DNA from: Parelaphostrongylus tenuis
Taxonomy: Eukaryota > Nematoda > Chromadorea > Rhabditida > Metastrongylidae
Direction: 5' to 3'
Assembly: GCA_019055375.1 (NCBI GenBank)
Contig: JAHQIW010007035.1
Coordinates: 104,537-168,536 of the forward strand
Length of the DNA: 64,000 bases
Shown here: positions 8,341 to 62,290 of the stretch, piece after piece
Position numbering within the stretch: position 1 is the stretch's first letter
Layout of the letters: each line of letters starts with the position of its first letter
Translations under genes and position numbers: made by a program
The notes under the pieces: generated by a model
Told to the model about the DNA's origin: nothing
The model's database searches: none
What the model saw: only the letters and a program-made list of their open reading frames with translations

Positions 8341-8831
8341 GCACATATTTTCGATCCCTTGCGAAAAACGCGCCATTTTTTTTTCTTGAATCTTAGCAAT
8401 TATCTAGTAGCTCAGATCTCGGAGATTTCGATGACATTTATGTTTTCAAGATGGCTCTTTTACTGTACTGTAACACCAAGATTGAGGTAATGTTTCCCAC
8501 ATTTTTCGCCGAATAAAAAGTTTTTAGACATTTAGTGACCACTCGATAATTTGAGTCTTGCCGAATCCAATGATGTGGATAGAGATTTCGCAACAAGGCC
8601 GCTATGCTACAGCGTCTTCCTTGTGTAAAATTTGCGAAACTCAATCTTGATAATGGTTACATGGCAACATCAACTTCCTTTCAAAACCAAACACATCATT
8701 GGAACCCACTAGATAGAAGCTATCGAATGACTAAAAAAGGCTAAACTAGAACTTTCCTTAGCAAAAAAATGTTTCAACGGGGAACAATTATCTGAACCAG
8801 CTTGTCTTGTGGTCTGTTAAATGGGCTCTTG

Positions 8832-8882
8832 TACAGCCTAGCACACGTGTTTCGACGTTGACTAGTCTCGTCAGTCTGCCAA
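8832..8882 (-). ncRNA. hammerhead ribozyme motif
   Basis: On the minus strand the core CTGACGA (8868-8874) is followed by a helix II GAC/GTC and then GAAA (8850-8853). A CACGTG helix III segment and T-G follow at the expected cleavage position. The core is intact, but helix I pairs poorly and G occupies the cleavage position, so activity is doubtful. It is paired with the plus-strand motif at 9336-9385 across the composite. Confidence 0.6.
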
Positions 8883-8957
8883 AACCCGTCGTCTTTTGGC
8901 TCAGATAACAGTAAAAAGATATACCCAATAAGTGTAGAGTGGTGTGCAGAAACACTC

Positions 8958-9030
8958 GCGTCGGCCGAGATTTCGAACCCAGATCTCACTCTTTACGGGA
9001 GCGTGTGCTGAACCGTCGCACCACCGACGC
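8958..9030 (-). other. tRNA-like sequence (SINE head or tRNA relic)
   Basis: The minus strand folds as a cloverleaf by eye. It has a 7-bp acceptor GCGTCGG/CCGACGC, D arm GTGC/GCAC, anticodon stem CGCTC/GAGTG with loop CCGTAAA, and a T arm with GGTTCGAAA. The A- and B-box positions are kept. Loop position 33 is C instead of T and the T loop has an extra base, so I do not call a functional tRNA. A 72-nt relative lies at 33798-33869. Confidence 0.6.
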
Positions 9031-9210
9031 TCGTTTTGCACAGCACTCTTTTTTACTCTACAACGCGTTATCTGTCATCAGTCAACCGTCGTTGGTCTGG
9101 CGTAGCAACCGCTATCGGCATTAAACCCACTTATGTTGACAGATATTGTGTTTCAATAATCAATCGAAATTCATTTATTTGACCGCCTTTTGCGGTGTAT
9201 GATGCTATAT

Positions 9211-9262
9211 GGTGCACGCGCTCCGGGAAAGAAGGAGATCTGGGTTCGAATCTCGGCCGGCG
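9211..9262 (+). other. 3' half of a tRNA-like sequence
   Basis: It retains the anticodon-arm region, a perfect GGTTCGAATCT B box and the 3' acceptor CCGGCGC, but the 5' half is replaced by unrelated sequence. It is inverted relative to 8958-9030 and corresponds to the half copy near 33575-33620. Confidence 0.5.
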
Positions 9263-9335
9263 CGAGTGTTTTGCGCACCACTCTACATCATTTGGTATAT
9301 CTCTTGATTGTTATCTGAGCCAAAAGACGACGGGT

Positions 9336-9385
9336 TCTGGCAGAGTGATAAGACTGTCAAGGTCGAAACACGTGTGCCAGGCTAT
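9336..9385 (+). ncRNA. degenerate hammerhead-like motif
   Basis: The core is mutated to GTGATAA. Helix II GAC-TGTCAAG-GTC and GAAA (9365-9368) are intact, and CACGTG and CTGGC/GCCAG pairing remain. It is the partner of the minus-strand motif at 8832-8882. Confidence 0.5.
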
Positions 9386-9682
9386 ACAAGAGCCCATTTA
9401 ACAGATCACAAGACAAGTTGGTTCAGAAATTTTCCCCGTTGAAACATTTTTTGCTGAGGAAAGTTTTATTTTAGCCTTTATTAGTCATTCAATAGCTTAA
9501 ATCTAGTGGGTTCCTAAAATGTGTTTGGTTTTGAAAAGGACCTGATTTTTCGCTGTATTCATTAACAGAAGACTGAGTTTCGTTTCGAGTGTTTTCTAAA
9601 AACCACAGCTCAAAATTCAATATGACTGGTAAACATTTTTGAGCCCCGCATGTCAGTGGTCTGTCAAAGAAGGCTAAATTAT

Positions 9683-9730
9683 AGAGCCCGTTACACGTGT
9701 TTCGATCTTGCGATCTCGTCAGTCTGGCAG
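9683..9730 (-). ncRNA. hammerhead ribozyme motif, left arm of FB1
   Basis: Minus strand: CTGACGA (9716-9722), helix II GATC-GCAA-GATC (a 4-bp stem with a GNRA-type loop), GAAA (9700-9703), CACGTG, then T-A at the cleavage position. Core and helix II are perfect, but helix I pairs only partly. Confidence 0.65.
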
Positions 9731-9836
9731 TTACCCTTTCTCGTCCTTTGCTAATCTCTGTAGGTGCTCCAGTCCCCGCATTAAGAGTTAGCAACAACGA
9801 ACGTTTTACACTCTATGTCGACGAGAAAGGGTAACT

Positions 9837-9879
9837 GACCGACTGACGAGATCGCAAGATTGAAACGCGTGTATCGGAC
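9837..9879 (+). ncRNA. hammerhead ribozyme motif, right arm of FB1
   Basis: CTGACGA at 9843-9849, helix II GATC-GCAA-GATT, GAAA at 9862-9865, helix III CGCGTG, then T9872 and A9873 at the expected cleavage point. Helix I CCGA (9839-9842) pairs exactly with TCGG (9874-9877). All core bases of the known hammerhead consensus are present. Confidence 0.75.
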
Positions 9880-10399
9880 TCTATAAGTCAGCCTCTTTGA
9901 CAGACCACTCACATGCGTGGCTAAAAAATGTTCACCAGGCATATAGAAGATTAGAGTTTCTCAAATTCAACACCGGAAGAACGCTGTAGCTCAGCGGCCA
10001 TGTTGCGAAATCCCTATCCACATCATTGAAATTGGGCATGATTCAAACTATCGAATGGTCACTAAATGTCTAAAAAATTTTTTGCTCGGTGAAAAATGTT
10101 TGAAGTTCGATGATTGCTTTTTTCCACGACTTTCGATGAGGCTGGTGCATAAGAATTTGCCATTTATGCAAATTTGAAATCCGTGTCCTTTACGCAATTT
10201 TTTGAACCACTATTGCACTAGTACATTCGCTAAAATCCCGTACCATGCACTGCTGATGTTGGGAATTGTCGCTGTGGTCTCTACGACATATTTTCAACTC
10301 ACGATTAACAACAACAAATACTCTGTCACCAGTTGACATCCTTTCCATAGTCTAGAGTAAAATTAAAACAGTTAGTGCTGTAGAGTGATGTGTAAAACT

Positions 10400-11160: not shown

Positions 11161-11383
11161 TTGTATATTACCCAACATTATTAAATATATATCTGTGACA
11201 TCATACCACCGCTAGAGCGATTGAAGAATTTCTTCAACTATACAACACGTGATACGTCATTCGCAACAAAAAGTAAAGCGAGAAAGGCACGTGTAAATAC
11301 ATATGATAAGTGAACAATATTGTTGAAAATAATTTATAGTTATTATTGAGCCATGCATGTGGTCTGTTATGGGCACTTATACA

Positions 11384-11426
11384 ATGCGATACACGTGTTT
11401 CACCATTGCAGCCTTAACAGTTGCAC
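11384..11426 (-). ncRNA. hammerhead-like motif, left arm of FB2
   Basis: Minus strand: GTGCAA (helix I), core CTGTTAA (mutated from CTGATGA), GGC-TGCAAT-region helix II, GAAA (11398-11401), CACGTG, then T-A and TCGCAT. The core mutations make it degenerate. Confidence 0.5.
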
Positions 11427-11516
11427 GGTGCCTTTTTGTCCAGCCGATTCCTCGAAGAATACATAGGGAAATTTTAAAGGCAGATCCCCGAGGAACTGAC
11501 TGAACCAAAAGGTTCC

Positions 11517-11559
11517 GTGCAACTGATAAAGCTGCAATGCCGAAACACGTGTACTGCAC
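11517..11559 (+). ncRNA. hammerhead-like motif, right arm of FB2
   Basis: GTGCAA (11517-11522) pairs, except for the last base, with CTGCAC (11554-11559). The core CTGATAA has one change from CTGATGA. Helix II is AGC-TGCAAT-GCC, then GAAA (11542-11545), CACGTG, and T-A at the cleavage position. Confidence 0.6.
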
Positions 11560-11818
11560 TTCATAAATGCAGACAACAGATCACATGCACGGCTCAAAAA
11601 ATAACTATTAGTCACATTGAAGTGCAGGCCTAATCTCAAGAAACATTGAAAACAAAACAATGATATTTTGAAAATATAGCTCAATAATAAACGCTGCATC
11701 TCAACCTGCACAGGCCTCAAATACTCTTCCACCAAGCTAATATATTTGTATACATTGCTTGACTTGTAACAAAGAATAATCTGTTAAGGATATTACTTGT
11801 TTTGAGCCAATAGGTCTA

Positions 11819-11866
11819 GTGCTATATAGGCGCCTATTTCGTCCTATTGGGACTCATCAGTAGCAC
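11819..11866 (-). ncRNA. hammerhead ribozyme, type I, left arm of FB3
   Basis: Read on the minus strand the fold is complete. Helix I GTGCTA pairs with TAGCAC (6 bp) and the core is CTGATGA (11854-11860). Helix II is GTCC-CAATA-GGAC and GAA-A follows at 11837-11840. Helix III is TAGG-CG-CCTA with a 2-nt loop, followed by U and A17 at the cleavage site directly before helix I. All consensus core nucleotides are present. Very short helix III is the known style of Penelope-associated and retrozyme hammerheads. Confidence 0.88.
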
Positions 11867-12089
11867 CCTCCCTCGGTTCCGTCGATCCGTTGAGGTGAAA
11901 TAATCCTCTAAAAGAATCGGCGCCGAGTAAAAACTAAGCACCCCAAAGTAGGATGATGGTATTACCTGACTTTGTGGTGATCGGCAGTCGAGATTGCGGC
12001 TTTTAGAATGAAGAATGCCTAGTTTTTACTCGGCGCCGATTCCTTTAGAGGATTATTTCACCTCAAGGGATCGACGGAACCGAGGGAGG

Positions 12090-12137
12090 GTGCTACTGAT
12101 GAGTCCCAATAGGACGAAATAGGCGCTTATATAGCAC
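12090..12137 (+). ncRNA. hammerhead ribozyme, type I, right arm of FB3
   Basis: GTGCTA (12090-12095), CTGATGA (12096-12102), GTCC-CAATA-GGAC, GAAA (12116-12119), TAGG-CG-CTTA with one G-U pair, T130, A131, then TAGCAC (12132-12137) closing helix I. The predicted cut is between 12131 and 12132. The only difference from the left arm is a C-to-T that turns a G-C pair into a G-U pair, so the fold is kept. Confidence 0.88.
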
Positions 12138-12325
12138 TAGACCTATGGCTCAAAGTATGTCATATCCTTATCAGATTAAATCATTTTGAGCGGGTCTGTA
12201 AAAGAGCGGTCGATAACAAAGAATATTGTTGAATAGAGCGCATCAGAGCTAATAATCTCACTTTACATAAGGGAACAATGTCAAACCGATGCAGCCCTAA
12301 CATATTGATGAACGTAAAAACACAT

Positions 12326-17119: not shown

Positions 17120-17410
17120 GATATTATTGAAATTTGAGCGTGGTCTTAATAAAGCATTCGAAGGAAAGGTATAATATGATAAAAATACCAGCCAGCTAGC
17201 ATCGAGTGCGAAAACACTCCGTGTTAGGTGAATGTTTCACTGACATAGAGTGTAAAGCGTACGTCGTCGATAACTATATATAAGGAATGTAAATCTCCCG
17301 AGAGAACTGACTATGAAAACATAGACAGACGACGGGTTCTGCCCGGCTAATGAGTCTGTAAGGACGAACACGTGTCTCGGGCTGTGCAAGAGCCCTTACC
17401 AGACCACATG
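17120..17410 (+). mobile_element. retrozyme-like repeat unit with hammerhead
   Basis: The unit starts with GAAATTTGAGCGTGGTCT, continues for about 200 bases, and ends with a hammerhead motif followed by CAAGAGCCC...CCACATGACA. Related units occur around 32105-32400 and 32410-32590, and start sequences recur at 51440 and 62200. Its size and content resemble the small hammerhead-carrying retroelements called retrozymes or PLE terminal repeats. The relationship is inferred. Confidence 0.55.
17341..17382 (+). ncRNA. hammerhead ribozyme motif
   Basis: Helix I GCCCGG (17341-17346) pairs with TCGGGC (17377-17382). The core reads CTAATGA (one change), helix II is GTC-TGTAAG-GAC, GAAC has one A fewer than the consensus GAAA, then CACGTG, T75 and C76 directly before helix I. 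It preserves the canonical U-C cleavage step that several other copies have lost. Confidence 0.65.
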
Positions 17411-18099
17411 ACATGTTGACTCAAATAATAATGAAAGGATTTAGTGAAGGGTTATTTCTATGGTACGTGGCCGCCTCGGGATAACTGAAGCTCCTAATTC
17501 TCTGCGGTCGGGAATTGTTGATAATGTTGTCTGGTAACAGATCACTCCCTGCAATCTAGAAGGGAACTATATAGCGCGGCTACTTCAGAAGTCTAGAAAG
17601 AACAAGCTTGAAAACCATTTAAACGCATTTAAAAAAATTCAGTCCTTAAAAAAAGCTACATTTACAAACTTTGAAGACCCAGATGGATGATGGATGCGAG
17701 AAAGTGAACCGATGGCATGAAGTATTGCTGGAGCATGGTAGATGTGAAGGCGAAACGTGTTCTAATACGAATTTATCTTTTTCTTTTCAAAAATTGAACA
17801 GCTTTGTAGTTTTGCCTATTTAGGTGATCTAGTCCACGGTGGAAACAGTTGAAAATTATTCGAGTGCTACTGCGTTCCGTAATGCAGAACCTGCTGCTAC
17901 TGTCGCGTACTTGAGACATTTTTGTTGAGTGAATAGTGCAACGGAAGGAACTCTTTTTTTTGATAAAACTCCCTTCCTATTCCAAGTGGTCGTTCTTCGT
18001 GAGAAAATGTATTTGTAATACCAAAGGTCAGTGATAAAAGATAGAACCGTAGGAAAATTTTGTAATCCGGCTAAATAGAATTTTTTGAATAACTCATCT

Positions 18100-20050
18100 G
18101 AACGATAATAAAAGACCGGATAAATTCAAAATCCCTCTCAAACTTCACTTTATGGCTGTATTTATTTCGTTTGAAATGAAGCGTTGGATAAACGGGATAT
18201 TATTGTCATTGCCTTTCTCGTTGGAGCTAATCCTATTCTAATAAGCCAAACTTTCGTAGTCATTGAAGATGGCTATTTTGCGTGGCGAGTTCAATGATTC
18301 TTCTTTCCAATCTTTTCCCGGAAACACACAGGCGACCGTGCAAAACAAATTTTTTATAAGATATCGTTTTGTGTGGGAAGGCTGAGAGGAGAGGTCATGG
18401 GCCATGACAGTTTCATTAGTTAGCCTTCGATACCTTTTGTGGTGCAGCCATTTTTGGGAAAGGACGTTAACGCGTTGACAACGACGTTGAAATTCTGCGC
18501 GGCACGCAGCGACTGCAATGATGTTGTGGTAGTTTTCTAATGAAATATAGATTTCCATCGACACAAAAGTGACATCGGTGAAGCTAGATGTTGCAGAAAC
18601 AATGTCAATGGGTAGCTACTTTCTACAGCGAACTGTGCTTGCAAAACGATAGCTTTTTTCGCTAGAAGAATGTAAAGAAATAGTCATTTGACAACGCATG
18701 ATCAGTGGGAGAATCAGCATTTCTGAAGCTAGGGAATGACCACTAAAATATCTATGAAAGAAAAAGAAACGAAATTATATAACACCTGGAGATATGTTCC
18801 GTTTTACAAGGTGCCTTTCCCGTTGAAACCTACATGATTTTTCGATACATAGGCATTCTCACAACTATAAAATTCTTTCCAGAAGCCTCTTCTGCCATAT
18901 TCCATCGTTTAATCACGATATCTCAGTACCTTAGGTAACCAAACATATTCCCATATTTCCATTGCAAGGCGGATAATGAAGACTTTCGCCGCTCCACGAA
19001 GCCGCACATGTGGCGTGCGGTCTGAGTTGAAAACAACTCAGATCGTTCTTAACGTAATGGAAGCCAATCTTTTTGGAGTTTTTTCTGGATGACCCTTATG
19101 TACTGTGATTGTACGTATAGTAATTCAAAGCATTTTTCCATGTCCTCTTGTGTTGGGCAAACGACAAAGCAGTCGTCAATATATCTGCAATAGAGTAGTA
19201 GTCCAATGATGAGTATGGGGGCTTCAAATTTAGACATAAACGCAATGGCAAGTGTCGGTGCCAGTCCATGTACTATGGTCAGTCCTTCAAATTGTGCCTG
19301 ATATGTTTCGGACCGTCTCAAGACTGAGCAGCTTAGCCACCTTTTCAAGAAGCTCATAAGCTGCTGAATCGTGAAGTCATGCATATTTTTAGCTCTTTCA
19401 TGTTGCCTAAAGAAATCCTAAGTGACCACTAGTGCAGAATCATGCGAAACGTTTGTGTAAAGTCAAGGTACGTCGAAGGATTGCATAACACGTTTTACGT
19501 ATTACATAGACGATCCAGAAACATTTCGGTGTTGGCAATGTGGGAGGGGATGTGTCTTAAGAACTGAACGATTATTAGGTTTATAAACCAAGCCAATTTG
19601 TCCGTTAGCCCGTCACTCAACTAATGATGGTCTTGTCTTGAAAGTTGTGGGATCGGTAGACACCAAATCATCAGTGGGAATGAGCTTGTGAGTCCTCAAT
19701 AAGTAGGCTTAGGAAGGGACATGATGGTTGGTCAAGTTTAAGCTGCGTAATAATGGATGATTTTAAACCTGTTGTTTTAGCCACTACTTGTGCGCTAGAG
19801 CTAAAACGTGGTGTGTAATGTAGACTACAGGCTATAGACAACCGGAACACACTCCGGTGTTTCCTCGTTCGACCTGGTGAGCATTCTTTTCATAAAATAC
19901 ATGAAAATTTTCGTGCATAAACATTTCTCATCGGAATCTTCTCCATACTCCTTGCTTTGCTTATCACATCGTCGTTAATTAGTCAGTCTGAATCTATCTG
20001 CAGTCCTTGCCCTTGATATTTAAAGAGTAACACAAGAAACGTTTTTTTTC
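18100..20050 (-). mobile_element. Penelope-like element, RT fragments (PLE-a)
   Basis: The minus strand encodes pieces of a PLE reverse transcriptase: L-Y-T-N-V-S near 19450, H-G-L-A-P-T-L-A-I-A-F-M-S-K near 19230, the catalytic box Y-C-R-Y-I-D-D-C in the 111-codon frame 19049-19384, and the thumb segment (S-H-T-K-R-Y-L-I-K-N-L-F) at 18238-18564. Internal stops and frameshifts are present and no GIY-YIG domain is attached. It mirrors PLE-g. Confidence 0.8.
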
Positions 20051-21239: not shown

Positions 21240-22690
21240 GTATTGATATTATTTATTGAACACAAGCAAGGCATACAACAATACAGTTAGTAATTCAGCT
21301 TGAATATACAATATTCGAGGTGGCTAACCTTTCGGCGGGTCGCCTCCTTCAGAGCCTGGAAAGATCATATTGATCCACATTCCACTGTGCCAAAACCTCC
21401 ATGACCCTAGCAGAAAACGTTAAAAACGAAGTTTGGATTGCACAGTAGAAGCTTCATTTTAGAACACTCACCGTTTTGTTGTTTGTGGGTCTATCAATTA
21501 TCCACTGAAGAACAGCCGCTTAGGGTCAGTGCATCAGTGGGCCATGCCTAACTCAGGCAGGAAAGATCAGTTTGAGGTATGATTCGAGGTCATGCGTAAT
21601 TGCGAGGGCACTCCTCTTTTCGGTTCATTTTTGGGCCTTTGCTATGTATCCAAAAGGCTTTTAAGCTTTTACGCGCAGATGCTTTTGATTCCTGTGCGAG
21701 GATCGTGGATTTGACGCCGAACATTACTACTAAATGTTTTTGGTTCTTATACGAGCCTAGTCGGGTTTTTGAATCAGCGTTGCGTAGCCCGAATAGGCGT
21801 TCTTTTACGAGGAGGAACAGTGATCCACCAGTTTCGACAATGTACTCATCGCCGCATGCCTCGCAAAAGATTAGGTAAATTATACCCAATCTCATACAGT
21901 CGCCGTCTCTGCCGTTTGGGCAGACTTTGCAATCATTGGTTTCGCAGAGGCGTTCATACAGTCGGTTGCGGACTAATTGGCGTTTTACTGTGTTTGGTGG
22001 TATTTCAGCTATTGCTACAGAATTATTCAAACCTGCTCTTCTCAGGCAACGTTTAATAGCTGTGCCTACTTGATAGAGATAAAAGGCAAGAGAAAAGGAA
22101 CCTTATTTTGGTCAGGCTTCTCGTTTGAGAGCACAGAATTTCCTCTAAATCCAACCGAGAAGCTCCTACCGTATCGTAGCCATCTCAGATGACTATTTTT
22201 CGCGCCAAGCTTGAAGATTCCACCTTGTGTTCTTTTCCTGTGCACACATTTGTCGCTGTGCGAAACATGTTCGTCAGAAGCGCGGGTTCTATGTGTGGAT
22301 GAGCTGATAGGTAATGAACCAAGATGCTTTTGTTGCTTTGTTTTCGGTACCATTTTGCATTGTAGTAGCTTTTGGACAGTTTGACCTGAACGTTTAAAAA
22401 TAAGCGCCAATTTGCTTTCGATTTCTCACGGGTAAACTTTATGACTCTGACTGACTGTTCAGCAACTCAAAACATTTGCCCATCTCCTCTTGGGTTGAGC
22501 AGACGACAAAACAGTCATCTGTAAACCTACAGAAGAGTAACGGCCGAAGATCGATTATTGGGTTCTCCATTTTAGACATAAAGGCTATAGCAAGGGTTGA
22601 TGCTAGTCGTTGTCCCCATTGTCAGCACTCTGATTTGGGCAAAATAAAACTCGGACCATTTGAAATTTGAATAGTTTAGGCACTCTTTTC
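21240..22690 (-). mobile_element. Penelope-like element with GIY-YIG nuclease (PLE-b)
   Basis: The minus-strand frame 21590-22030 (146 codons) starts I-P-P-N-T-V-K-R-Q-L-V-R-N-R-L-Y. It then shows a zinc-like C-x2-C-P-N-G-R-D-G-D-C and the GIY-YIG nuclease core (G-I-I-Y-L-I ... E-Y-I-V-E-T-G ... V-K-E-R-L). The second G of YIG is V, so the nuclease is probably dead. Upstream frames (22066-22680) hold the thumb and a F-T-D-D-C-F remnant of the catalytic box. The downstream end (21300-21370) carries the TTCGGCGGGTCGCCTCCTTC sequence typical of PLE termini. Confidence 0.85.
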
Positions 22691-27760: not shown

Positions 27761-28257
27761 CTTAACAGACGATGGACAGTACAGGGAACGGTCTTGCAGA
27801 TGTTTTTCCTTTATACTGACATCCAGCTGGCGAAAGAATACAACAAAATCTCGTGTACCTACTCATAAAGGCTTATAAGGTGGTCTCCACTGATGATGTG
27901 GTGTTCACCAATCCTTCAACGTTCAAGATAGGACCCATAATTAGCTGCCTTCACGTGCCAAAGGAAAGATTAGCTCGGTTTATAAACTTAGTTGTCGTCC
28001 AGTTATTAAGACACATCACCGGCTCACTTTACCAACACCCAAATATTTTTGGATCTTCTACGTACTACGCGCCCTAACAACGAGCATGTTATGCAATAAT
28101 TCGATGTAGCTTCGCCCTAAACAAACGTTTCGAATGAATCTGCACTACAAGCCACCTATGAGCTTCTTAACATAAAAGGGCTAAAATTATGTATGGCTTC
28201 TCAATTCAACAGCTTATGAGACTCTTGAAGAAGCGACGAAACTGCTCAGTCTTCAAA

Positions 28258-28270
28258 TGATCCGGAAAAT
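28258..28270. repeat. target-site duplication, left copy
   Basis: TGATCCGGAAAAT, identical to 28714-28726. Together they bracket the insertion in PLE-d, and removing the insertion rejoins the PLE sequence. Confidence 0.8.
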
Positions 28271-28713
28271 TGATCCATTAAATCGACTGTTTCTAAAACC
28301 TCGTAATAAACATTCAAAATAATTCCAAAAAAAAAGAATGTTTTTAACCTAAACGAGGTTGGTACGCCAGGGCCATACACCGGTGTTTCGGAGGTTTCGG
28401 CCTAATCGTCAGTGACCCCCGCCCCACATTAAGCCATGCATTGTAGCAAGGAGGGAGGCGTATGTGGTATGTGTTGATGGCATAGTACACAATGACACTG
28501 ATCCATCATCATCAGTCGAGGGTTTCGGCTGGTAGAAATGGATTAGTTTTGGTCTACCAGCCGAAACAATAGACTGATGGTGATGGACCAGTGTCATTGT
28601 ACACTATGCCATCACCACACACCACATACGCCTCCCTCCTTGCTACAATGCAGGGCTTAATGTGGGGCGGGAGTCACTGACGAGGCGATCGAAACCTCCG
28701 AAACACCGGTGTA
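28271..28713. mobile_element. foldback insertion FB4 with paired hammerhead motifs
   Basis: A 443-base insertion in PLE-d between 13-base direct repeats. Positions 28374-28715 form an almost continuous palindrome centred near 28545. The first 103 bases are a separate A-rich hairpin (CCTCGT...ACGAGG). The palindrome arms each carry a hammerhead-like core. The right border coincides with the predicted hammerhead cut. Confidence 0.75.
28370..28418 (-). ncRNA. hammerhead-like motif, left arm of FB4
   Basis: Minus strand: GGGTCA pairs with TGGCCC (6 bp, one G-U), core CTGACGA (28406-28412), GAAA (28386-28389), helix III CAC-CG-GTG, then U and A at the cleavage point. Helix II between core halves is long and poorly paired, so activity is uncertain. 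Confidence 0.55.
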
Positions 28714-28719
28714 TGATCC
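28671..28719 (+). ncRNA. hammerhead-like motif, right arm of FB4
   Basis: GAGTCA, CTGACGA (28677-28683), a weak helix II, GAAA (28700-28703), CAC-CG-GTG (28704-28711), T712, A713. The 3' helix I strand (28714-28719) is target DNA, so only partial pairing is left. Confidence 0.55.
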
Positions 28720-28726
28720 GGAAAAT
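28714..28726. repeat. target-site duplication, right copy
   Basis: TGATCCGGAAAAT, identical to 28258-28270. One more base (A) before each copy also matches, so the exact border is ambiguous by one base. Confidence 0.8.
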
Positions 28727-30656
28727 ATTACAAACGACTTAGATTGTTGGCCACGGGACAACGACTGGCACCAACTCTTGCCATAGCGTTTATGTCTAAA
28801 ATTGAAGCACCCGTACTCAATCTTGGACCACCACTCTATTGTAGATACATTGGCGACTGCTTTGTCATTTGTTCAACACAAGAGGACATGGACAAATGCT
28901 TTGAATTACTTTATATACTATCGCAGTTTATAAGCTTCACCCTAGAAAAACCCCAAAAAGATTGGCTTTCATTTCTTACCGTGCAAGCTATCCTTTTCAA
29001 AAATGGCTACATCATAAAATGGTATTGAAAGCAAAGTAATTGAAACATTCTGGCCCATGGCCTCCTCTCTCATACCTGCCACACAAAGCGATCGCTTATA
29101 AGATATTTGTTTTACGCGACATCCGGTATGTGTACGGGCAAAGAGCAAAGAGAAGAATTATTGAACTTGTTAGGCGAAATAGCCATTTCAACTGGGTACG
29201 AAAATGTAGCTTATCAGAATAGGTTCAGAAGAAATGTTAAACGCTCGAACGGCAGAGGCAATGATAGTATGGTCCCGTTCATCCTTCCCTTTATTTCAAG
29301 CGGAAAAATTCAGTCGTGAAGTGAAGATTGAGAGGAACTTTGATATTTGTTCGGCCTCTCATTACCGTTCAGACGAATTATTCAAAAGATTATGTTTAAC
29401 CGCATTACAATATCTCCCTACCGTTTTATGTTCTATCACTGACCCTTCGTATAACAATGACATTTTCTCACGATGAGCGACCACATGTGAAAGGAAAGAA
29501 GTTTTTAAAAAAGATTTTATTCCGTTACACTATTCACATAACAAGTATTTGTCTCAAATATGCCACGGTAGCAGCAGGTGCTACATTACTGAATATGCTT
29601 GCACTTGAATAATTCTCAGCTGTTTCCATTATGAACACGATCACCTAAATAGACAAAACTACAAAGGTGCTCAATGTTTAGGAAGAAAAGTTAAATTCAT
29701 ATTACATACGCTTCGCCTTCACATCTACTTCACAACAATACCTTATGCCATCGATTAGCATTTTCGCATCCATTATCCACCTAGGTCTCCCAAGTTTCCA
29801 CATTTAGCTCTACTTGATTATTGGTTTTTTATGACTGCGTTTGAATGCTGATCAAGTCTGTTTTCTCTAGACTTCGGAAGTAGCCACACTACATTGTTAC
29901 CCTTCAAAATGCAGTGAGTGATCTGTCACCAGACAAGTCCATGAACAGTTTCCGACTCCCGAGTAATTAAGGCCTCAGTGATCCCGAGGCGGTCCCGCAC
30001 CATAGACATAGCCTTTCACTAAATGTTTTTCGACCTTCGACGTAACTTGTAATTCTTGAGCCACATGAAGCGCTGTACATATTTTGTGAAATTTGAGCAG
30101 GTGATGAAAACAAAGTCATGATCATATCACTTTCTGTGCTTTAGCATGTCGTCGGCGACTTAAACAAGAAGGAGTGTACTCTATCTGCACCTGATAAGCA
30201 GCAGGGTTACGGTCAGACGATGTGACTATATTCAGTTTCTAAGGATTTTTCATATCTTGGGTTTTGACAAAAAGGTTGCAACGAGAAGCTCCGCATATTC
30301 TGTTATTCAGTACTTGTAAAACTCCACCATAGGTTTCGGGATTAAAATGCCAAATACGTTGCAAAAATAAGCGCATGTGTTAACAATCAGTGAACATTTT
30401 CCCGATGCCGCACGCAACAACAACCGTCAGACATTTGTGCCGTTACCAAATGAGTGCAACGGAAAGGCTGCACAGTTAAGAAAACAGAAAAATAGTGGTA
30501 AATTCACTATACGGCGCATAAGTCAAAGAAGGCTCATATTGTTGCAATGAAGATGATGTGCCCAACAACATTTTGGTAATATAAAGAGCCAGCTCTCCCT
30601 CACTGGTTCCTCTTTACTCAGATCACTTGCAGAGATTATAAATATTTACAATAAAT

Positions 30657-30967
30657 TCACTGATTACCAATTTCGTTTCCCTCTGACGTTCTGTTGAATT
30701 CTGGAGTCACTTGTCCATCCTTCACCACGTTTCCTTCATCTCGACGGACTCGATGGTGCCCAGCATACGGACTTTTGCGATGGTGACATATATCTTCGCC
30801 ACATGGATTTTCACAAGGCTCGTGGCAACAGCAAATATTTTTTCCATTTTGATTACAAGCCTAGAGCATTAGCCATTGCTTAGAGAAGTGATCATCTTTA
30901 CCTCTCAAAAATGCTCACTAACCAATGCAATACTAACAACAGCCATCAAAATGAGAAGATGCTTCAT
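30657..30967 (-). CDS. secreted Cys-rich peptide P5 (intact)
   Basis: The only fully intact copy. Exon 1 (30923-30967) encodes MKHLLILMAVVSIAL, a short signal peptide, and ends at GTTAGT. A 62-base intron ends in CTCTAG. Exon 2 (30657-30860, phase 0) encodes 67 residues and TGA. The mature part has the pattern C-x7-CCC-x3-C-x3-C-x4-C, seven Cys, so an unpaired Cys could make a dimer. An R-V-R-R furin-type site lies about 40 residues in, and the acidic tail has an N-R-T glycosylation site and ends N-E-I-G-N-Q. It reads as a secreted disulfide-rich propeptide. I do not recognise the family, and the role is unknown. A TATA-like box and a TTTGCAG acceptor-like site precede it. Confidence 0.78.
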
Positions 30968-30990
30968 GTTCTTTAAAGAAGGCGATGCAG

Positions 30991-30997
30991 CTGCAAA
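30991..30997 (-). promoter_or_regulatory. putative trans-splice acceptor of P5
   Basis: TTTGCAG on the minus strand, 23 bases before the ATG, conserved in most copies of the family. Nematode genes often receive a spliced leader at such a site. That use here is inferred. Confidence 0.4.
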
Positions 30998-31107
30998 GAC
31001 GTCGGTTCACTTAAGCTACGTGGTTGTTCTAAATGAAGTAGGGAAGTAAAAACTAGATAGGGACAGTAGCAAAACCAAAGTGAGTGGTGTGATGACCATT
31101 GGCGGTG

Positions 31108-31114
31108 CTTATAT
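31108..31114 (-). promoter_or_regulatory. TATA-like box of P5
   Basis: ATATAAG on the minus strand, about 140 bases upstream of the ATG, within a conserved GGGCAAATATAAGC context also present at 36451-36464 for P6. Confidence 0.4.
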
Positions 31115-31714
31115 TTGCCCTGGAGTAGATGGACCTACGATAGATACAGAGTTTTCCAGAAAACCTGATAGAGGTGTTTACGGTGGGAAAGTTTACACAA
31201 AGCCACGAAAGTCTCTACAAAAGAGCTAGTTAAAGATAGCCATGATGGATGTGACAAAGTGCATCAGATAGGGAAAGAACACTTTGGCCAAAAAGGATTG
31301 TCGGGGAAATTTTGTAAGTGCAACTTAAGTTTAAGTGAGTGCGTAGAAACCACATCTTTGTGAACATATTCTTCATGATAATTATTTGATATAATTTATG
31401 AGAAAATTGACATTCTTGCTTCCTTTCTTTGGTAAATATCCAAAAAGAGAATTTTATTTGGAATATTAACATCATGTACGGCTTGTCATATTTTTTTCGA
31501 TGGGCTTTTTTTTAATTAGAAACTCTTCGTAGTGAATTCCTGCCTTTCTTTCAGCATGGGAACGAAGAATAGTCCACTGAAGTGATAATATTATCGTATG
31601 AGGTGAGCCGAAAGGAAATTTTTGGTCGTACAGCAATGAGAGCACCTGTGAATTTCTTTAGCAAAAGTAACCCTACATGATTGATCGGACAGACGTCATT
31701 TGATCAATATATGC

Positions 31715-31905
31715 CGTTATTTTTCCTTTGATTTGACGAAGGTCTTTGATTCGGTGGGAACGGAGCGGTCATTGAGGTCCGCATACTCAGGGCGTCTTTA
31801 CTCGGTCCATAAAGATCCTTCTTAATTTATATAACGATGTCACAGCGATGTTCTACAGCAATATTACCATCGACGTAGGAGGAGGGTTTGACAAGGCGAT
31901 AAAAT
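31715..31905 (+). mobile_element. RTE-type LINE fragment (palm start)
   Basis: The plus strand reads F-D-L-T-K-V-F-D-S-V-G-T-E and then a frameshifted palm segment, ending at GGAGGGTTTGACAAGGCG. It corresponds to the opposite end of the minus-strand RTE at 34710-35790, so it is the truncated mirror copy. A short GAGGGACATGATTTTATTTT inverted sequence follows at 31905-31960. Confidence 0.65.
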
Positions 31906-32029
31906 AAAGATTATCTTGAAAATAAAATCATGTTCCGAGGGACATGATTTTATTTTTCAATATATCTCGTAATTGTTAATTGTTATTTGAGCCAACTTGT
32001 GACGTGGTCTGTTAAATGGGCTCTTTTAC

Positions 32030-32076
32030 AGCCTGACACACGTGTTTCGACCTTGACAGTCTCGTCAGTCTGCCAG
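32030..32076 (-). ncRNA. hammerhead ribozyme motif
   Basis: Minus strand: CTGACGA (32062-32068), helix II GAC-TGTCAAG-GTC, GAAA (32045-32048), helix III CAC-GT-GTG, then U and C at the cleavage position. The core is complete but helix I pairing is poor. Confidence 0.65.
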
Positions 32077-32322
32077 AACCCGTCGTTTTTTGGCTCAGAT
32101 AGCAATAATGAGACATATTGAAATCTGAGCGTGGTCTTAGGCAAACACTTATAAGGAATGGTATAGTATTTTCAAAATACCAGCTATGAGCAATCGAGTG
32201 CACAAAACTGCTGTTCTAGTGATTTTCACTTGCCAGCAGTATAGTGTAAATCGTTGCTCGTCGCCTACTCTTAGTGTGTGAATTTTAGCACCCACAAAGG
32301 ATTGGCTAAAAGACGAAGGATT

Positions 32323-32370
32323 CTGCCTGATTGGCGAGACTGTCAAGGCCGCAGCACGTGTACCGGGATG
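32323..32370 (+). ncRNA. degenerate hammerhead-like motif
   Basis: TTGGCGA replaces CTGACGA and GCAG replaces GAAA. GAC-TGTCAAG-GCC, CACGTG and T-A remain. Recognisable only through its flanks. Confidence 0.45.
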
Positions 32371-33059
32371 TACAAGAGCCCATTTAAGAGACCACATGAC
32401 CAGTTGGCTCAGATAGCATTATGAGATATACTAAAATTTGAGCGCGGTCTCCAAAACACTCGAAAAAACGGTATAAATTTATTTCTGCTGTAACAGCGCT
32501 ATAGAAAGGCCGTTTAGAAATTGAAATGCATTTTCAAATTTTTTGAATTTGTGCTATCGAATGACTACCTGGGCTTCATAAGTCACCGAAAAATGACATT
32601 CCCACGAGTGGTCGATCAGTGATCGGATAAGGGAATAGTACCAAGAAAACTTTACTAAAAGTCGTAAATGAATCTGATTGAGACTAATCACAGATTTTGT
32701 GTTTTTTCACACTCTTGTCTCTTACTCAAGGGTTCAATAAAGATGGCTTGATATTGGAATATCGAGACTAACACTATCTTTTATCTTATCGATGATTCTT
32801 GTGAAAACGCTAGCGTTGATAAACGCTTTAAATAAGAGAACTGAGTGTGGGTAGACACAAAGTAATGGAACGCTTTCATTCTACCTTATTAATTATTTTT
32901 CGTTAATTTCTTCCTTTTTCGCACTCTTGGAATACAGAGGTTACCTCTGCTTTACTTCGATGATTTTGTGGACGACTAGCGCTTGTTTACGCTTCAAGAA
33001 GATACGTGTGGAAAGGCACAAAACTAAAACGGTTGCATTCTGATTTGTTTGTAATTTCC

Positions 33060-33440
33060 CATGAAATCCTATACCACATCTTTTGATAAGTTTTGGCACC
33101 AGAGCAGTAGAAACCAAATTTATTAGCCAAAATTAAATATACAACTTATATAAAATAACACGACTAAGGTATGCGTCATCAACGTGAACAAATTTCTGCC
33201 ATCTCTCAAGCAACAATTCAACACCGCTTTCTGCAGAATTTTGTGTTCTTTCTCTTTGGTGCCAAATTTGTCCGTACTTGCCGCATCATGGCCACTTAAA
33301 GAATCCTTTATCGCAGTTTGTGCTTCTTGAGTACAAATTGGGATGCGATGCACGGACTGCTTTCAAGAACATCAACCGTGCAAAGGCTAAAGGATTTGTG
33401 GCTAGGTGAACAGCGTTTCGGTTCTATGGTGAGTTCGTGC
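33060..33440 (-). mobile_element. mariner-derived element, rearranged (copy 2)
   Basis: The minus strand reads the transposase C-terminus (S-G-V-E-L-L-L-E-R-W-Q-K-F-V-H-V-D-D-A-Y in shifted frames). The neighbouring 33330-33440 holds the N-terminal A-K-A-K-G-F-V-A-R sequence on the opposite strand. Same junction as 13770-14310. Confidence 0.6.
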
Positions 33441-33797
33441 AGGCAGCACTAACCCGAAGTATCATTATGTCTAATAATAAACCAGGCTTCATTTTGTTTG
33501 ACTGCGTATTGCGGGTAGTGTGATGTTGCAGCAAACCCAATAATATAGAGTGTTGGGCAAAAACATTTACGTCAGTCGGAATTCGAAAACAGATCTCACT
33601 CTTTTTGGAGCGCGTGCATCATATGATATCATACCACAGCAAGACGCGGTCAAATGAATGAATTTCGACTGATTATTGATATCCAATATCTGTCAACATA
33701 AGTGGGATGAAAGCCGATAGCGGCTGCCACGCCAGAACGGCGACGGTTGGGTGACAGATAACGCGTTGTAGCGTAAAAAGAGTGCTATGCAAAACGA

Positions 33798-33869
33798 GCG
33801 TCGGTTATGCAACGGTTCAGCACAAGCTCGCGTAAGGAGTGAGATCCGGGTTCGAATCTCGGTTAACGC
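33798..33869 (+). other. tRNA-like sequence
   Basis: Exactly 72 bases with acceptor GCGTCGG/TTAACGC (partly mismatched), D arm TGC...GCA with GGTTCAGCAC, an anticodon-like GTA, and a perfect GGTTCGAATCT B box. Relative of 8958-9030. A repeat component, not a convincing gene. Confidence 0.55.
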
Positions 33870-33936
33870 GAGTGGCCATTCTACATTATTAGGTACATCT
33901 CATGTCTGTTTTCTGAGCCAAAAAACGACGGGATCT

Positions 33937-33980
33937 GCCCGACTGACGAGACTGTCAAGGTCGAAACACGGGTGTCGGGC
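33937..33980 (+). ncRNA. hammerhead ribozyme motif
   Basis: Helix I GCCCGA (33937-33942) is fully complementary to TCGGGC (33975-33980). CTGACGA (33943-33949), helix II GAC-TGTCAAG-GTC and GAAA (33963-33966) are intact, and CAC-GG-GTG forms helix III. The U-H cleavage dinucleotide overlaps helix I, which looks like a 2-base deletion relative to 17341-17382. Confidence 0.68.
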
Positions 33981-34709
33981 TGTACAAGAGCCCATTTAAC
34001 AGACCACGTGACAAGTTGGTTCAGATAATCTTTCTCCGTTGGAACATTTTCCGCTGAGGAAAGTTTTCCTTTAGCCTTTACTAGCCATTCTATAGCTTAA
34101 ATCTAGTGGATTCCAAAAATGTGTTTGGTTTTGGAAGCGACTTGATGCTGCGTTGTATCCATTAACAGAAGATTGAGTTTCGCAAACATAACACCGGAAA
34201 GACGCTGTAGCCTAGCGATCATGTTGCGAAATCCCTATCCACATCATTATTATTGACATGATTCATACTATCGAATGGTCACTAAATGTCTAAAAAAATT
34301 TTTTGTTCGGTGAAAAATGTTTGGATGAGAAATATTGTTTTAGATTTTGGTGCTACAGTACAGTAAAAGAGCCATTTTGAAACTATGAAACGCCTTCGAA
34401 ATCTCTGAGATGTGAGCCAAGACTCCAGAAAAAATCAAAGGGTGTGTTTTTATCGAAGGGTCCAAAAAAGGTGCGAACTACCGAGATAATCTAAATTTGC
34501 AAACCTCAATCTTCTTTTGATATTTACAACGCAACAAAAAGTCTTTTACAAAAATTAAACACATTGTTGTAATCCCAAGACTTAAGCTACCGATGATTAC
34601 CGAACACTAAACAAAAGCTTCGTACAACGAGAAATACTTGAATGACAATCACAATTTTATTTCTACTGCTACAACAAAATAAAAAGCCGCTTCGAAGATA
34701 AATCACCTT

Positions 34710-35790
34710 TTCTTAAGTTTTTCTGAGATTTCATCTGTATAATCTGTCTCGCCATTTATCGTCGAGTTACTCGGACGCGCACCAGCTACACTTTCATCTT
34801 TGCTCATCGCCTGCAACAGTAGTCCAGTTGTTCCTTATCGCTTTAAAGATTCGCTGAACATCTATCTTTCTCCTAAGCTTCTCGGAGAAAATCGGACTAG
34901 GGGGTCCGTGGTCCTCTTTTGGAAGGCATGACTCCGCGAGGGAATCCAGCAGGTAACACCTCTCGTCCATTGGTTGCCGTTGAAGCGCACTACGTGTCCG
35001 GCTTACTGTACCTCTCTTGTTTGCGAGATATGGAATACCCCTAGCATCGAAGTTTCGATTGCGCGTTTAATAACGCCAAGTGATTTCTCATCTTGCTTAC
35101 GTAGCGACCAGGTTTCTGCTGCATACATTAGGGCAGGCATAATCGTCGAGTCGAAAAGGTGGGCGCGGAGTCGGATGCTCTTTGTCTCTTCACTAAGACC
35201 TCAATCTTCTTAAGCGTTTCCTAAGCCGCTCGTTCCTTCCTGCTCAACTCTGAAACTAGGTCGTTCATCATAAAAACCTCACGACCTACATGGACGTAAC
35301 TGAAGCATTCGTAGATGCTCGCTTCGTTAAACGTTAATGGGGCATTCAAAACCAATCCGTTAATAAACATCCTTTTCGTGAAATCTAGGCGAAGGCCAAT
35401 CTTCCCACAAACGTTAACGGAATCGGTAAGCATCCGCTCCGCCCGGCTGATGCCTGGTGTTATTAAGACGATATCATCAGTTAAGCGAAGATGGATTAAT
35501 TGTCGACCGTTGATCTTCACTCCCACATCGTCCCAGACCAATATTCGCATGACGTTTTGAAAGGTGGTAGTGAGTAATCATGGCAAAAATGTAACGCCTT
35601 GTCAAACCCCTCCTCCTTCGTCGATGGTAATATTGCTGTAGAACATCGCTGTGACATCGTTATACGACTTAGGACGGATCGATATGCACCGAGTAAAGAC
35701 GCCCTGAGTATGCGGACCTCGATGACCGCTTCGTTCCCACTGAATCAAAGACTTTCGTCAAATCAAAGGAAAAATAACGGCATATATTGA
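34710..35790 (-). mobile_element. RTE-type LINE reverse transcriptase, decayed
   Basis: The minus-strand frame 35221-35550 contains L-R-L-T-D-D-I-V-L (polymerase box, A changed to T), then K-I-G-L-R-L-D-F-T-K and V-H-V-G-R-E-V-F-M-M-N-D-L. The thumb region continues in other frames to about 34900. An F-D-S-V-G-T-type palm start lies near 35745. Several frameshifts, no endonuclease domain. Confidence 0.82.
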
Positions 35791-38040
35791 TCAAATGACG
35801 TCTCTCCTATCAATCATATAGGGTTACTTTTGCTATAGAATTTCACAGGTGCTGTGATTGCTGTACGACCAAAGGTTTCCTATCGGCTCACCTCATGCGA
35901 TAATATTATCACCTCAGTGGGCTATTCTTCGTTCCCATGCTGAAAGAAAGGCAGAGATAGCAGCTGCCATTTACATAATTGCGCAAATGACGAAAGTAAT
36001 TCAAAGGAGTTTTGCAAGCAGTTCGAGAAATAATCCACTACGAAGAGTTTCTAATTGGAATAAAAGCCCATCGAAAAATATATGACAAGCCGTACATGAT
36101 GTTAATATTCCGAATAAAATTATCTTCTTGGATATTTACCGAAGAGAGGAAGCAATAATGTCAATTGTCTCATGAATTATATCAAATAATTATCATCAAG
36201 AATATGTTCACAAAGATGTTGTTTCTACGCACTCATTTAAACTTAGGTTGCACTTACAAAATTTCCCCGACAATCCTTTTTGGCCAAAGTGTTCTTTCCC
36301 TATCTGATGCACTTTGTCACATCCATTATGGCTATCTTTAACTAGCTCTTTTGTAGAAACTTTCGTGGCTTTGTGTAAACTTTCCCACCGTAAACAGCTC
36401 TATCAGGTTTTCTGGAAAACTCTGTATCTATCGTAAGTCAATCTACTCCAGGGCAAATATAAGCACCGCCAATGGTCATCTCACCACTTACATTGGTTTT
36501 GCTACTGTCTTTACTTAGTTTTGACTTCCCTACTTCATTTAGAACAGCTACGTAGTTTAAGTGAACCTACATCTTTGTAGCTGTCTCGTCTTCTTCAAAG
36601 AACATGAAGCATCTTCTCATTTTGATGGCTGTTGTTAGTATTGCATTGGTAAGTGAGCATTTTTGAAAGGTAATGATGACCACTTCTTTAAGCAATGGCT
36701 AATGCTGTAGGCTTGCAACCAAAATGGAAAAAATAATTGCTGTTGCCACGACCCTTGTGAAAATCCATGTGGCGAAGATATATGTCACCACCGCAAAAGT
36801 CCGTATGCTGGCAGCCTCGAGTCCGTCGAGATGAAGGAAACGTGGTGAACGATGGACAAGTGACTCCAAAATTGAACAGGACGACAGATGGTAACGAAAT
36901 TGGCAATCAATGAATTTATTGTAAGTATTTATAATCTCTGCAAGTGATCTGAGTAAAGAGGAACCAGTGAGGGAGAGCTGGCTGTTTATATTACCAAAAT
37001 GTAGTTGGGCACATCATCTTCATTGCAACAATATGAGCCTTCTTCGACTTATGCGCCGTTTAATGAATTTACCATTCTTCTTCTGTTTTCTTAACTGTGC
37101 AGCTTTTCCGTTGCACTCATTTTGTAAAGGCACAAATGTCTGACGGTTGCTGATGCGTGCGGCATCGGAAAAATGTTCACTGATTGTTAACACATGCGCT
37201 TAATCTTGCAACGTATTTGGCATTTTAATCCCGAAACCTATTGTGGTGTTTCACAAAGCTACTCAATAACGTTGATATGCGGAGCTTCTCATTGCAACCT
37301 TTTTGTCAAAACCACAAGATATGGAGAATCCTTAGAAGCTGAATATAGTCACATCGTCTGATCGTAACCCTGCTGCTTATCAGGGGAAGATAGAGTACAC
37401 TCTTTCTTGTGTAAGTCACCGACGCCATGCTAAAGCACAAAAAGTAATATGATCATGACTTTGTTTTCATCGCCTGTTCAAATATCACAAAATATGTACA
37501 GCGCTCCATGTGGCTCAAGAATTACAATCTACGTCGAAGGTCGAAAAACATTCAGTGATAGGTTATGTCTATGGTGCGGGACCGCCTCGGGATCACTGAG
37601 GCCTTAATGTCCCGGGAGTCGGAACTGTTCATAGACTTGTCTGGTAACAGATCACTCACTGCATTTTGAAGGGTAACAATGTAGTGTGGCTACTTCAGAA
37701 GCCTAGAGAAAACAAACTTGATCAGCATTCAAACGCAGTCATAAAAAAGCCAATAATCAAGTAGAGCTAAATGTGCAAACTTCGGAGACCTAGGTGGATA
37801 ATGGATGCGAATAAGCTAATCGATGTCATAAGGCATTGTTGTGGACATAGTAGATGTGAAGGCGAAGCGTATGTAATATGAACTTATCTTTTTTCTTCCT
37901 AAACATTAAGCAGCTTTGTAAGTTTGTCTATTTAGGTGATCGTGTTCATAGTGGAAACAGCTGAGAATTATTCAATTGCTACCATGTTCAGTAATGTAGC
38001 ACCTGCTGCTATCGTGGCATATTTGAGACAAATACTTGTT
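35790..38040 (+). repeat. segmental duplication block B6 (with P6)
   Basis: Mirror partner of B5. It contains the promoter flank with GGGCAAATATAAGC, gene P6, the 3' flank and the 37570-38030 segment, and ends against PLE-e. Confidence 0.65.
36604..36848 (+). CDS. secreted Cys-rich peptide P6, truncated after the Cys domain
   Basis: Exon 1 (36604-36648) is identical in sense to P5 (MKHLLILMAVVSIAL, GTAAGT donor). Exon 2 starts at 36711 after TAG, in phase, and encodes all seven Cys with the P5 spacing. A one-base deletion near 36810 then shifts the frame and ends the protein at TGA 36846-36848, 60 residues in all. The R-V-R-R site and acidic tail are lost, so the product would be signal peptide plus naked Cys domain. 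Could be functional or an early pseudogene. Confidence 0.65.
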
Positions 38041-51340: not shown

Positions 51341-51665
51341 CTTTTTCGCCTCATTTTTTTTCGCCTCACTCGCCTCACTTTCGATTGCTCTTTTCTGGTA
51401 ATTGTGAATCATCATGCCTTTCGTTTCAAGTGTTGTTTTTTGAGACCACGCTCAAATTTCATTATGTCTGTCATTACTCATTATTCATTATGTCATTATT
51501 TGGATGACTTGCCGCGCTTTTTTTGCTCATGCATTGCTCTTCAGAAACCTTTCCAAAGACCACACCAGAGCGTAGGTGCAGATTTGTGCTATCGAATGAC
51601 TACTATTTGTTCAGCGAAAAGCTATCTACAGTTCACAGCTAAGCACACAAAGCAAGCCTAATTTA
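51340..51665 (+). repeat. dispersed repeat, copy 1
   Basis: Matches the reverse complement of 61985-62290 closely. Shared parts are the GAGACCACGCTCAAATTTCA start, an ATTATTCATTATGTCATTATT micro-repeat and the GTGCTATCGAATGACTAC end. It lies beside RTE sequence and contains the same start as the hammerhead unit at 17120. Confidence 0.65.
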
Positions 51666-61985: not shown

Positions 61986-62290
61986 ATCAAAAACTCGACA
62001 ATAAAATAGAATGCTTAGCTGTGAACTGTAGATAGCTTTTCGCTGAACAATTAGTAGTCATTCGATAGCACAAATTTGCACCTAAGCTCTGTTGTGGTCT
62101 TTGGAAAGGTTTTTGAAGAGCAATGCATGAGCGAAAAAAGCGCGGCAGGTCATCCAAATAATGACATAATGAATAATGAATAATGACAGACATAATGAAA
62201 TTTGAGCGTGGTCTCAAAAAAAAAACACTTGAAACGAAAGGCATGATAATTCACAATTACCGGAAAAGAGCACAAGTGTAAAACGCTGCC
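61985..62290 (-). repeat. dispersed repeat, copy 2
   Basis: Reverse-complement match of 51340-51665, very similar over its full length, which makes it one of the youngest repeat pairs in the window. Confidence 0.65.

Follow-up and report, generated by a model that had tools for sequence, protein, structure and literature searches.

The 64,000 nucleotides of Parelaphostrongylus tenuis DNA analysed here (the window) contain, at 11777-12178, a long inverted repeat, each arm of which holds a complete type I hammerhead ribozyme (HHR) that points outward, the left one on the minus strand and the right one on the plus strand, as a preliminary description had reported. The inner arms (11810-11940 and 12016-12146) are 131 nt each, 97% complementary and separated by a gap of 75 nt, and an outer block (11777-11809 and 12146-12178) is 85% complementary. 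The inverted repeat is real; the extent first given for it, 11785..12170, is too small, and the element runs from 11779 to 12213 with a target-site duplication on either side (Table 1). This duplication is an exact repeat of 12 bp, where random pairs of the same size from the window (n=283) reached a maximum of 11. On the right side only, 35 extra nucleotides lie between the palindrome and the duplication. Copies elsewhere in the genome align over arm and spacer as a single unit (query 1-244), so the spacer at 11941-12015 belongs to the fuller arm. The foldback is a single copy of an insertion that recurs in the genome; it consists of two separately truncated copies of a ~283-nt unit placed head to head. 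No stop-to-stop frame of 90 aa or more was found within 11779-12213. The purpose-built palindromic element that the preliminary description implied is not supported, the arms being separately truncated copies of unequal length with unlike outer ends.

Table 1. Features of the foldback and of other HHR-family elements in the window.
Feature	Position	Strand	Remarks
Left target-site duplication TAACAAAGAATA	11767..11778		12/12 exact direct repeat with 12214-12225
Fuller unit copy, 237 nt	11779..12015	-	outward to the left; tail-less short 3' end; includes the 75-nt "spacer" 11941-12015
Hammerhead, minus strand	11819..11866	-	predicted cut 11825/11824; Hammerhead_1 29.5 bits, below gathering threshold of 34
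5'-truncated unit copy	12016..12178	+	starts at unit position 76; outward to the right
Hammerhead, plus strand	12090..12137	+	predicted cut 12131/12132
One-sided 3' tail, 35 nt	12179..12213	+	long 3' end; matches tail at one end of other loci
Right target-site duplication TAACAAAGAATA	12214..12225		exact direct repeat with 11767-11778
E1, old head-to-head HHR-family pair	8787..9425		longer right arm interrupted by E2
E2, second head-to-head HHR element	9582..9944		cores 9700-9722 (-) and 9843-9865 (+); tail on left end
Degenerate head-to-head HHR-family pair	11340..11629		possible 9-bp duplication TTGAAAATA at 11323-11331/11668-11676
F2, single HHR-family copy	17260..17439	+	
E4, third head-to-head HHR element	28271..28712		cores 28386-28412 (-) and 28677-28703 (+)
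HHR-family arms	31976..34029	-, +, +	31976-32086 (-), 32311-32415 (+), 33925-34029 (+); near centre of 6-kb inverted duplication

Read from the sequence, the minus-strand hammerhead is made up of helix I (GTGCTA/TAGCAC), CTGATGA, GTCC/GGAC, GAA, ATAG-GCGC-CTAT and A17. Re-reading placed the predicted plus-strand cut at the same position as before, with its mirror on the minus strand. Helix III had been described as four base pairs with a CG loop. The short helix is present; a CG loop of two nucleotides is sterically unlikely, and the helix is better read as an A-U pair plus three base pairs closed by the palindromic tetraloop GCGC. In the axolotl, hammerheads whose weak helix III has a palindromic tetraloop reportedly require dimers (PMC7229834). 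The C-to-T difference between the arms does leave, as had been noted, a G-U pair, which closes helix III in the plus-strand hammerhead; this position is C in 47 of 48 arms. Helix I has 6 bp without an internal loop, which is the minimal form, lacking the canonical loop 1-loop 2 contacts.

The core CTGATGAGTCCCAATAGGACGAAA is present at two places in the window, 11837-11860 (-) and 12096-12119 (+), and 100 shuffles produced no occurrence. A descriptor in the order helix I, CTGANGA, helix II, GAAN, helix III, UH, helix I matches three sites in the window, and 40 first-order Markov simulations gave no match; many older HHR copies in the window are degenerate, and only these three sites pass it. 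The Rfam covariance models are less favourable. Scores below threshold in both arms had been named in the preliminary description as evidence against a hammerhead, and both arms do score below the gathering level, the minus strand with Hammerhead_1 (Table 1) and the plus strand with HH9 as its top clan match (23.5 versus 52); at the gathering threshold nothing is found within the 64-kb window. Since that level gave nothing there, the assignment to the hammerhead family is based on permissive Rfam scores, the descriptor and comparison between copies. A sister copy in the same genome (F2 in L007) passes Rfam with 34.9 against 34, the sole match at gathering level in the seven loci scanned.

In 48 arms from 20 loci, variant cells make up 20 of 2396 among the HHR nucleotides and 85 of 2710 in the flanks (cells that are not independent), and the HHR core is nearly invariant. 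Other HHR families of the genome have the same core with different helices, for example GCCCGG/TCGGGC and GGGGTCA/TGACCCT. Across six copies helix I pairs at 5.8 of 6 positions with its own partner and at 3.9 of 6 with swapped partners. Five of the six were chosen by the descriptor, which itself demands pairing, and helix II is partly exchangeable between families; the weight of the test therefore rests on the differing helices and on the absence of such matches in simulations. At the level of sequence, then, the core is nearly invariant and the helices are kept despite their differing sequences between families; activity of the hammerheads as ribozymes is putative. For the bare 48-nt motif the hammerhead fold (-10.1 kcal/mol) and the best computed fold (-10.2) are equal, and for pieces of 55-58 nt the best computed fold is not the hammerhead.

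Other HHR families in the window form head-to-head pairs as well (Table 1). E2 is flanked by imperfect duplications (15/16 bp, with one substitution and one 1-nt gap) at 9567-9581 and 9945-9960, and is absent from two paralogous stretches, 34167-34181 and 8636-8648. E4 sits inside a PLE-like (Penelope-like element) reverse transcriptase copy, has a 14/14 exact duplication, ATGATCCGGAAAAT, at 28257-28270 and 28713-28726, and has a paralogue without the insert at 38855-38868. At a third element (locus L003) the joined flanks match four paralogous copies across the junction with 71-77% identity (five rows, two of them one place). E2, E4 and L003 are insertions, their sites being intact where the insert is missing. 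The 9-bp duplication of the degenerate pair is weak, as 7 of 283 random pairs reach 9. No flanking duplication was detected for E1 or for the HHR-family arms at 31976..34029, which lie near the centre of an inverted duplication (30760-36811) with arms 92-94% identical. A tRNA-Tyr is predicted at 8957-9030, at the arm-spacer border of E1. Among neighbours within 300 bp in the window, five are divergent, two convergent and none same-strand; the convergent ones (9425/9583 and 11629/11779) are members of adjoining elements. Elsewhere in the window, 51386-51645 and 62012-62272 form a 261-bp inverted repeat with 95% identity.

The preliminary description had proposed a search for other copies of the arms, and this revealed a repeated insertion with many copies in the same genome. 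When the 481.5 Mb of this genome (5105 contigs) were searched with the whole foldback, 2199 first-look candidates emerged; 40 of these were scored, and the best 20 loci were fetched. The copy number is rough: besides the first-look candidates, there are three unit-like arms in a 200-kb sample. All 20 loci contain a head-to-head pair, a count that is biased because the query was the whole pair and the best 20 of 40 were taken; among the lower-ranked scored places at least two (C4695 and C4845) are listed with one arm only. Of the 20 loci, 18 lie between exact duplications of 9-15 bp (4 in 1000 random pairs reach 9), and none was found at L012 and L020. In this set the duplications are 76% AT and the flanks 60%. 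Arms differ by 2.0% within a locus and by 3.7% between loci, a difference as low in none of 2000 label shuffles. Only 10 of the 48 arms have their nearest neighbour in their own locus, which counts against the explanation preferred below. Viral contigs of IMG/VR, scanned with two core strings, gave no match to either.

The unit has a period of ~283 bp, and 8 of the 20 loci have an additional direct copy, with two direct copies each. Two kinds of 3' end are found. Short ends are scattered over roughly unit positions 229-241 (the furthest form being ...CTTATCAGATTAAATC), and long ends lie ~35-50 nt beyond them (for example ...GCAGAAGTA). By reading the ends, 19 of the 20 loci have one short and one long, tailed end, the exception being L011, which has no long end; an automatic count gave 18 because it missed the tail of L012. 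Because each kind of end is spread over ~10-15 nt, the start sites do not correspond to single points. In 16 loci the fuller arm begins at unit position 1-7, and in the others at 14-28; its partner is truncated at unit position 45-122 in all 20. In 10 of the 20 loci the fuller arm extends 11-37 nt into the end of a preceding monomer, as tandem copies show, and in L011 and L015 other filler lies beyond its start. The arms are joined by abutment, by an overlap of up to 7 nt or by filler. Some short stretches shared between tails were noticed by eye, ATTTTGAG in the foldback family and E2 and CAGTCGAT in the foldback family and E4, and such sharing across HHR families suggests a common cis-acting signal. 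In the region 28703-28726 the right arm of E4 stops within 1 nt of the predicted cut site of its hammerhead, as if it had been copied from RNA already cut there; other copies of the E4 family (L041 and L019) continue past the predicted site.

The 200-kb sample (20 stretches of 10 kb at fixed spacing on two contigs) contains 25 HHR-family arms. Divergent pairs account for 14 of them, and of the 11 others three lie near the end of a stretch; lone arms include those at L026, L038 and L043. Neighbours within 300 bp are divergent in seven cases (one of them a tiny overlapping palindrome), convergent in none and same-strand in three. Given the 11 unpaired arms and the single arms at C4695 and C4845, head-to-head pairing is common but not universal. 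Two of six sample pairs have a duplication above chance; so few are expected of older copies, which is not proof.

Remains of PLEs occur in the window, as tblastn matches to PLE proteins, and at three places only in the 200-kb sample. Among 13 distinct frames of the window the sole Pfam match above cut-off is an RVT_1 fragment at 19049-19417 (3.4e-7), which is taken as PLE-like on account of its 84% likeness to 28763-28973, where adjoining stretches match PLE proteins. A GIY-YIG region at 21590-22102 has its best match in Parelaphostrongylus tenuis (72% identity), with others including Necator and Angiostrongylus. A relative found with one of these two (P0025) carries RVT_1, GIY-YIG and PF26215 together, and relatives from Haemonchus and Nippostrongylus carry two of the three. 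These matches make a metastrongyloid nematode the likely host. RTE-like LINE remains were also recognised by eye, with a sub-threshold RVT_1 match at 35221-35577. Much of the window (14360-51330) is a mosaic of several diverged copies of one long PLE-like and RTE-like composite in both orientations, an example being 28713-31538 against 38868-36032 (92%). In a PLE copy at locus L022 a hammerhead-like remnant, CTATGACGAAGGC...GCCGAAAC, was noticed by eye on the minus strand below 8411, within a few hundred nucleotides after the endonuclease region. A frame in L007 that looked PLE-like by eye had no significant match to 62 proteins (best E 1.1), and by eye the ORF list of L043 contains no PLE ORF joined to the unit.

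We consider it probable, at roughly 0.7, that the foldback is an HHR element of non-autonomous, retrozyme-like character, which PLE enzymes have inserted through two-ended target-primed reverse transcription. Seen directly were both arms and the truncation of one of them, the duplications around the pair, the tail on one side, the short and long 3' ends, the tandems and the three insert-free sites; the steps leading to them can be proposed as follows. Multimeric transcripts from tandem copies would be cut by their hammerheads into ~283-nt monomers, and the RNA would reach the enzyme as a circle or an uncut multimer, since the copied DNA reads through the cut site and, in half of the loci, enters the preceding monomer, which suggests a template circular or uncut at that site. 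The endonuclease would make a staggered cut of ~9-15 bp in AT-rich DNA, on both strands, and each 3' end would prime copying in one of two start regions that lie inside the unit, 35-50 nt or so from each other, giving a short or a long end. The two cDNAs would then be joined in the middle of the element, either end against end, with a short overlap of at most 7 nt or through filler, so that each new insertion would be a hairpin, and transcripts of either strand are predicted to hold the ribozyme in an antisense duplex.

The inserting enzyme is probably of the PLE type. In purified form, the PLE protein of Anolis cuts both strands of the DNA and extends them, begins reverse transcription at internal sites by which the tail is defined and prefers AT-rich DNA, and the hammerhead of the anole PLE is dispensable for insertion in vitro (PMC11167929). 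Penelope insertions of A. vaga have inverted pseudo-LTRs in a mostly head-to-head arrangement; one of the copies bears a tail, and the duplications are 8-10 bp in the cases quoted (PMC3846280), against 9-15 bp here. The authors of that study explain the inverted arrangement as the outcome of self-priming on an antisense template (PMC3846280). By analogy, self-priming may create head-to-head pairs here as well, as two-ended priming does, but we judge two-ended priming the better fit for the unlike ends and the junctions.

A rather improbable alternative is that the pairs are solo inverted pseudo-LTRs of one or more autonomous PLEs, that is, internally deleted copies and not an independent non-autonomous family. 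The anatomy matches the inverted and solo pseudo-LTRs described for A. vaga Penelope (PMC3846280), the minimal type I form fits PLE hammerheads as characterised in PMC7229834 and PMC7761336, and PLE remains are present in the window. At L021 a GIY-YIG fragment is preceded, 182 nt upstream, by a head-to-head pair; ~270 nt beyond the fragment there is an arm belonging to a related family, in the opposite orientation. This pair, which is also locus L013, has a 10-bp duplication of its own, however, and for this reason looks like an insertion. None of the 20 elements contains a match to 16 PLE proteins, the tandem copies consist of bare monomers, and at L022 the 1 kb that follows the endonuclease region of the PLE copy matches none of five family sequences. 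An autonomous PLE with the ~283-bp unit as its pseudo-LTR was not found in the 20 loci, the 200-kb sample or the window.

LINE-type twin priming, or the later rearrangement of single insertions into inverted duplications, is an unlikely source of the pairs. The RTE-like remains in the window and the existence of lone arms would be compatible with it. Twin priming, however, inverts different parts of one RNA, whereas both arms here contain the same 3' region; later rearrangement would not set one duplication around the pair, as is found in 18 of 20, and the three insert-free sites are intact. Still less likely is a cut-and-paste foldback DNA transposon with terminal inverted repeats that has captured a hammerhead. 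Miniature inverted-repeat and foldback DNA transposons do have inverted arms and duplications, and the long inverted repeats and target duplications seen here recall them. A foldback DNA transposon is defined by matching termini and a fixed duplication length; the HHR element has unlike ends (short versus tailed), duplications ranging from 9 to 15 bp, a truncation point that varies in one of its arms and, at some loci, tandem direct copies. The idea that the double-hammerhead palindrome is itself selected, for example as a source of double-stranded RNA or a two-strand ribozyme switch, is the least credible: both window hammerheads are intact and HHR nucleotides are conserved across arms, but selection on source units explains this conservation equally, truncation points and junctions differ among copies, and folding predicts both ribozymes to be occluded. 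Unlike ends, variable duplications and variable junctions together led us to set aside the DNA-transposon, twin-priming and purpose-built-palindrome readings.

The HHR element resembles several known systems in part. HHRs occur in PLE pseudo-LTRs, as three studies state (PMC11167929, PMC7229834, PMC7761336). With PLEs of the Penelope/Poseidon type the element shares head-to-head inverted terminal copies, internal start sites, target duplications and AT-rich targets, as far as these are described for A. vaga Penelope (PMC3846280) and Anolis PAc (PMC11167929), and with PLEs in general it shares a minimal type I HHR. An optional tail of 30-40 bp on one inverted copy is a PLE feature, compared with ~35-50 nt in 19 of the 20 loci here. 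Inverted terminal copies in PLEs and HHRs in their pseudo-LTRs account for the palindrome. Unlike autonomous PLEs, the HHR element has neither reverse transcriptase nor endonuclease, and its unit is only ~283 bp. In PMC7229834 animal retrozymes are characterised as short, non-coding units that carry a type I hammerhead, lie in tandem and have duplications above 4 bp. The HHR element resembles these metazoan non-LTR retrozymes in its non-coding unit within the range of 150-450 bp, its type I HHR, its direct tandems, its duplications above 4 bp, its GC content (45% for the foldback element, below 50% there) and the presence of PLEs in the same genome (PMC7229834). Unlike them it has a minimal HHR without a helix I loop, only short tandems were seen, and it is inserted head to head, where the word 'inverted' is absent from the main text of PMC7229834. 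The hammerhead repeats of newt and axolotl and those of schistosomes likewise carry a type I HHR, and their repeated units are a few hundred base pairs long. In schistosomes these are known as tandem repeats or satellites, not as head-to-head insertions. The axolotl repeats share the weak helix III with palindromic tetraloop and are described as tandem or satellite, not as head-to-head insertions (PMC7229834). A retrozyme-like, non-autonomous element with PLE-type head-to-head insertion and a minimal PLE-type hammerhead is the most likely description. A literature search found no description of head-to-head inserted hammerhead units, its scope being such that the 2014 paper on PLE hammerheads and the 2017 paper on dimers lay outside it.

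As the preliminary description had pointed out, a transcript of either strand contains an antisense copy as well as a sense ribozyme; we add that the antisense copy comes first. The computed folding energy is -312 kcal/mol for the whole element on the plus strand and -298 on the minus strand. When the growing plus transcript is folded, the emerging ribozyme pairs with the antisense arm, and in-cis cleavage from the foldback locus is therefore predicted to be suppressed. Each head-to-head insertion would thus give double-stranded, ribozyme-silenced transcripts, and two-copy insertion would explain the frequent divergent hammerhead pairs in this genome. Which enzyme spreads the hammerhead retrozymes of animals is a standing question, on which the HHR element bears. 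Two papers from 2020 name PLEs as strong or likely candidate carriers, on grounds that include shared HHRs, tandem copies and co-occurrence (PMC7229834, PMC7761336). Since the HHR element combines a short hammerhead unit with insertions of PLE-style anatomy, and does so in many copies within one genome, the question of the carrier becomes testable. It may be that PLE-type machinery uses circular hammerhead RNA as a template and copies it onto the two ends of a staggered break; the retrozymes of this lineage would then typically be born as mirror-image pairs with one end tailed and one tail-less, the hairpin of each insertion would silence its own ribozyme, and this anatomy may reveal the enzyme of metazoan retrozymes. 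If this is true, the anatomy of the insertion would be the signature of its carrier and would answer which enzyme moves metazoan retrozymes.
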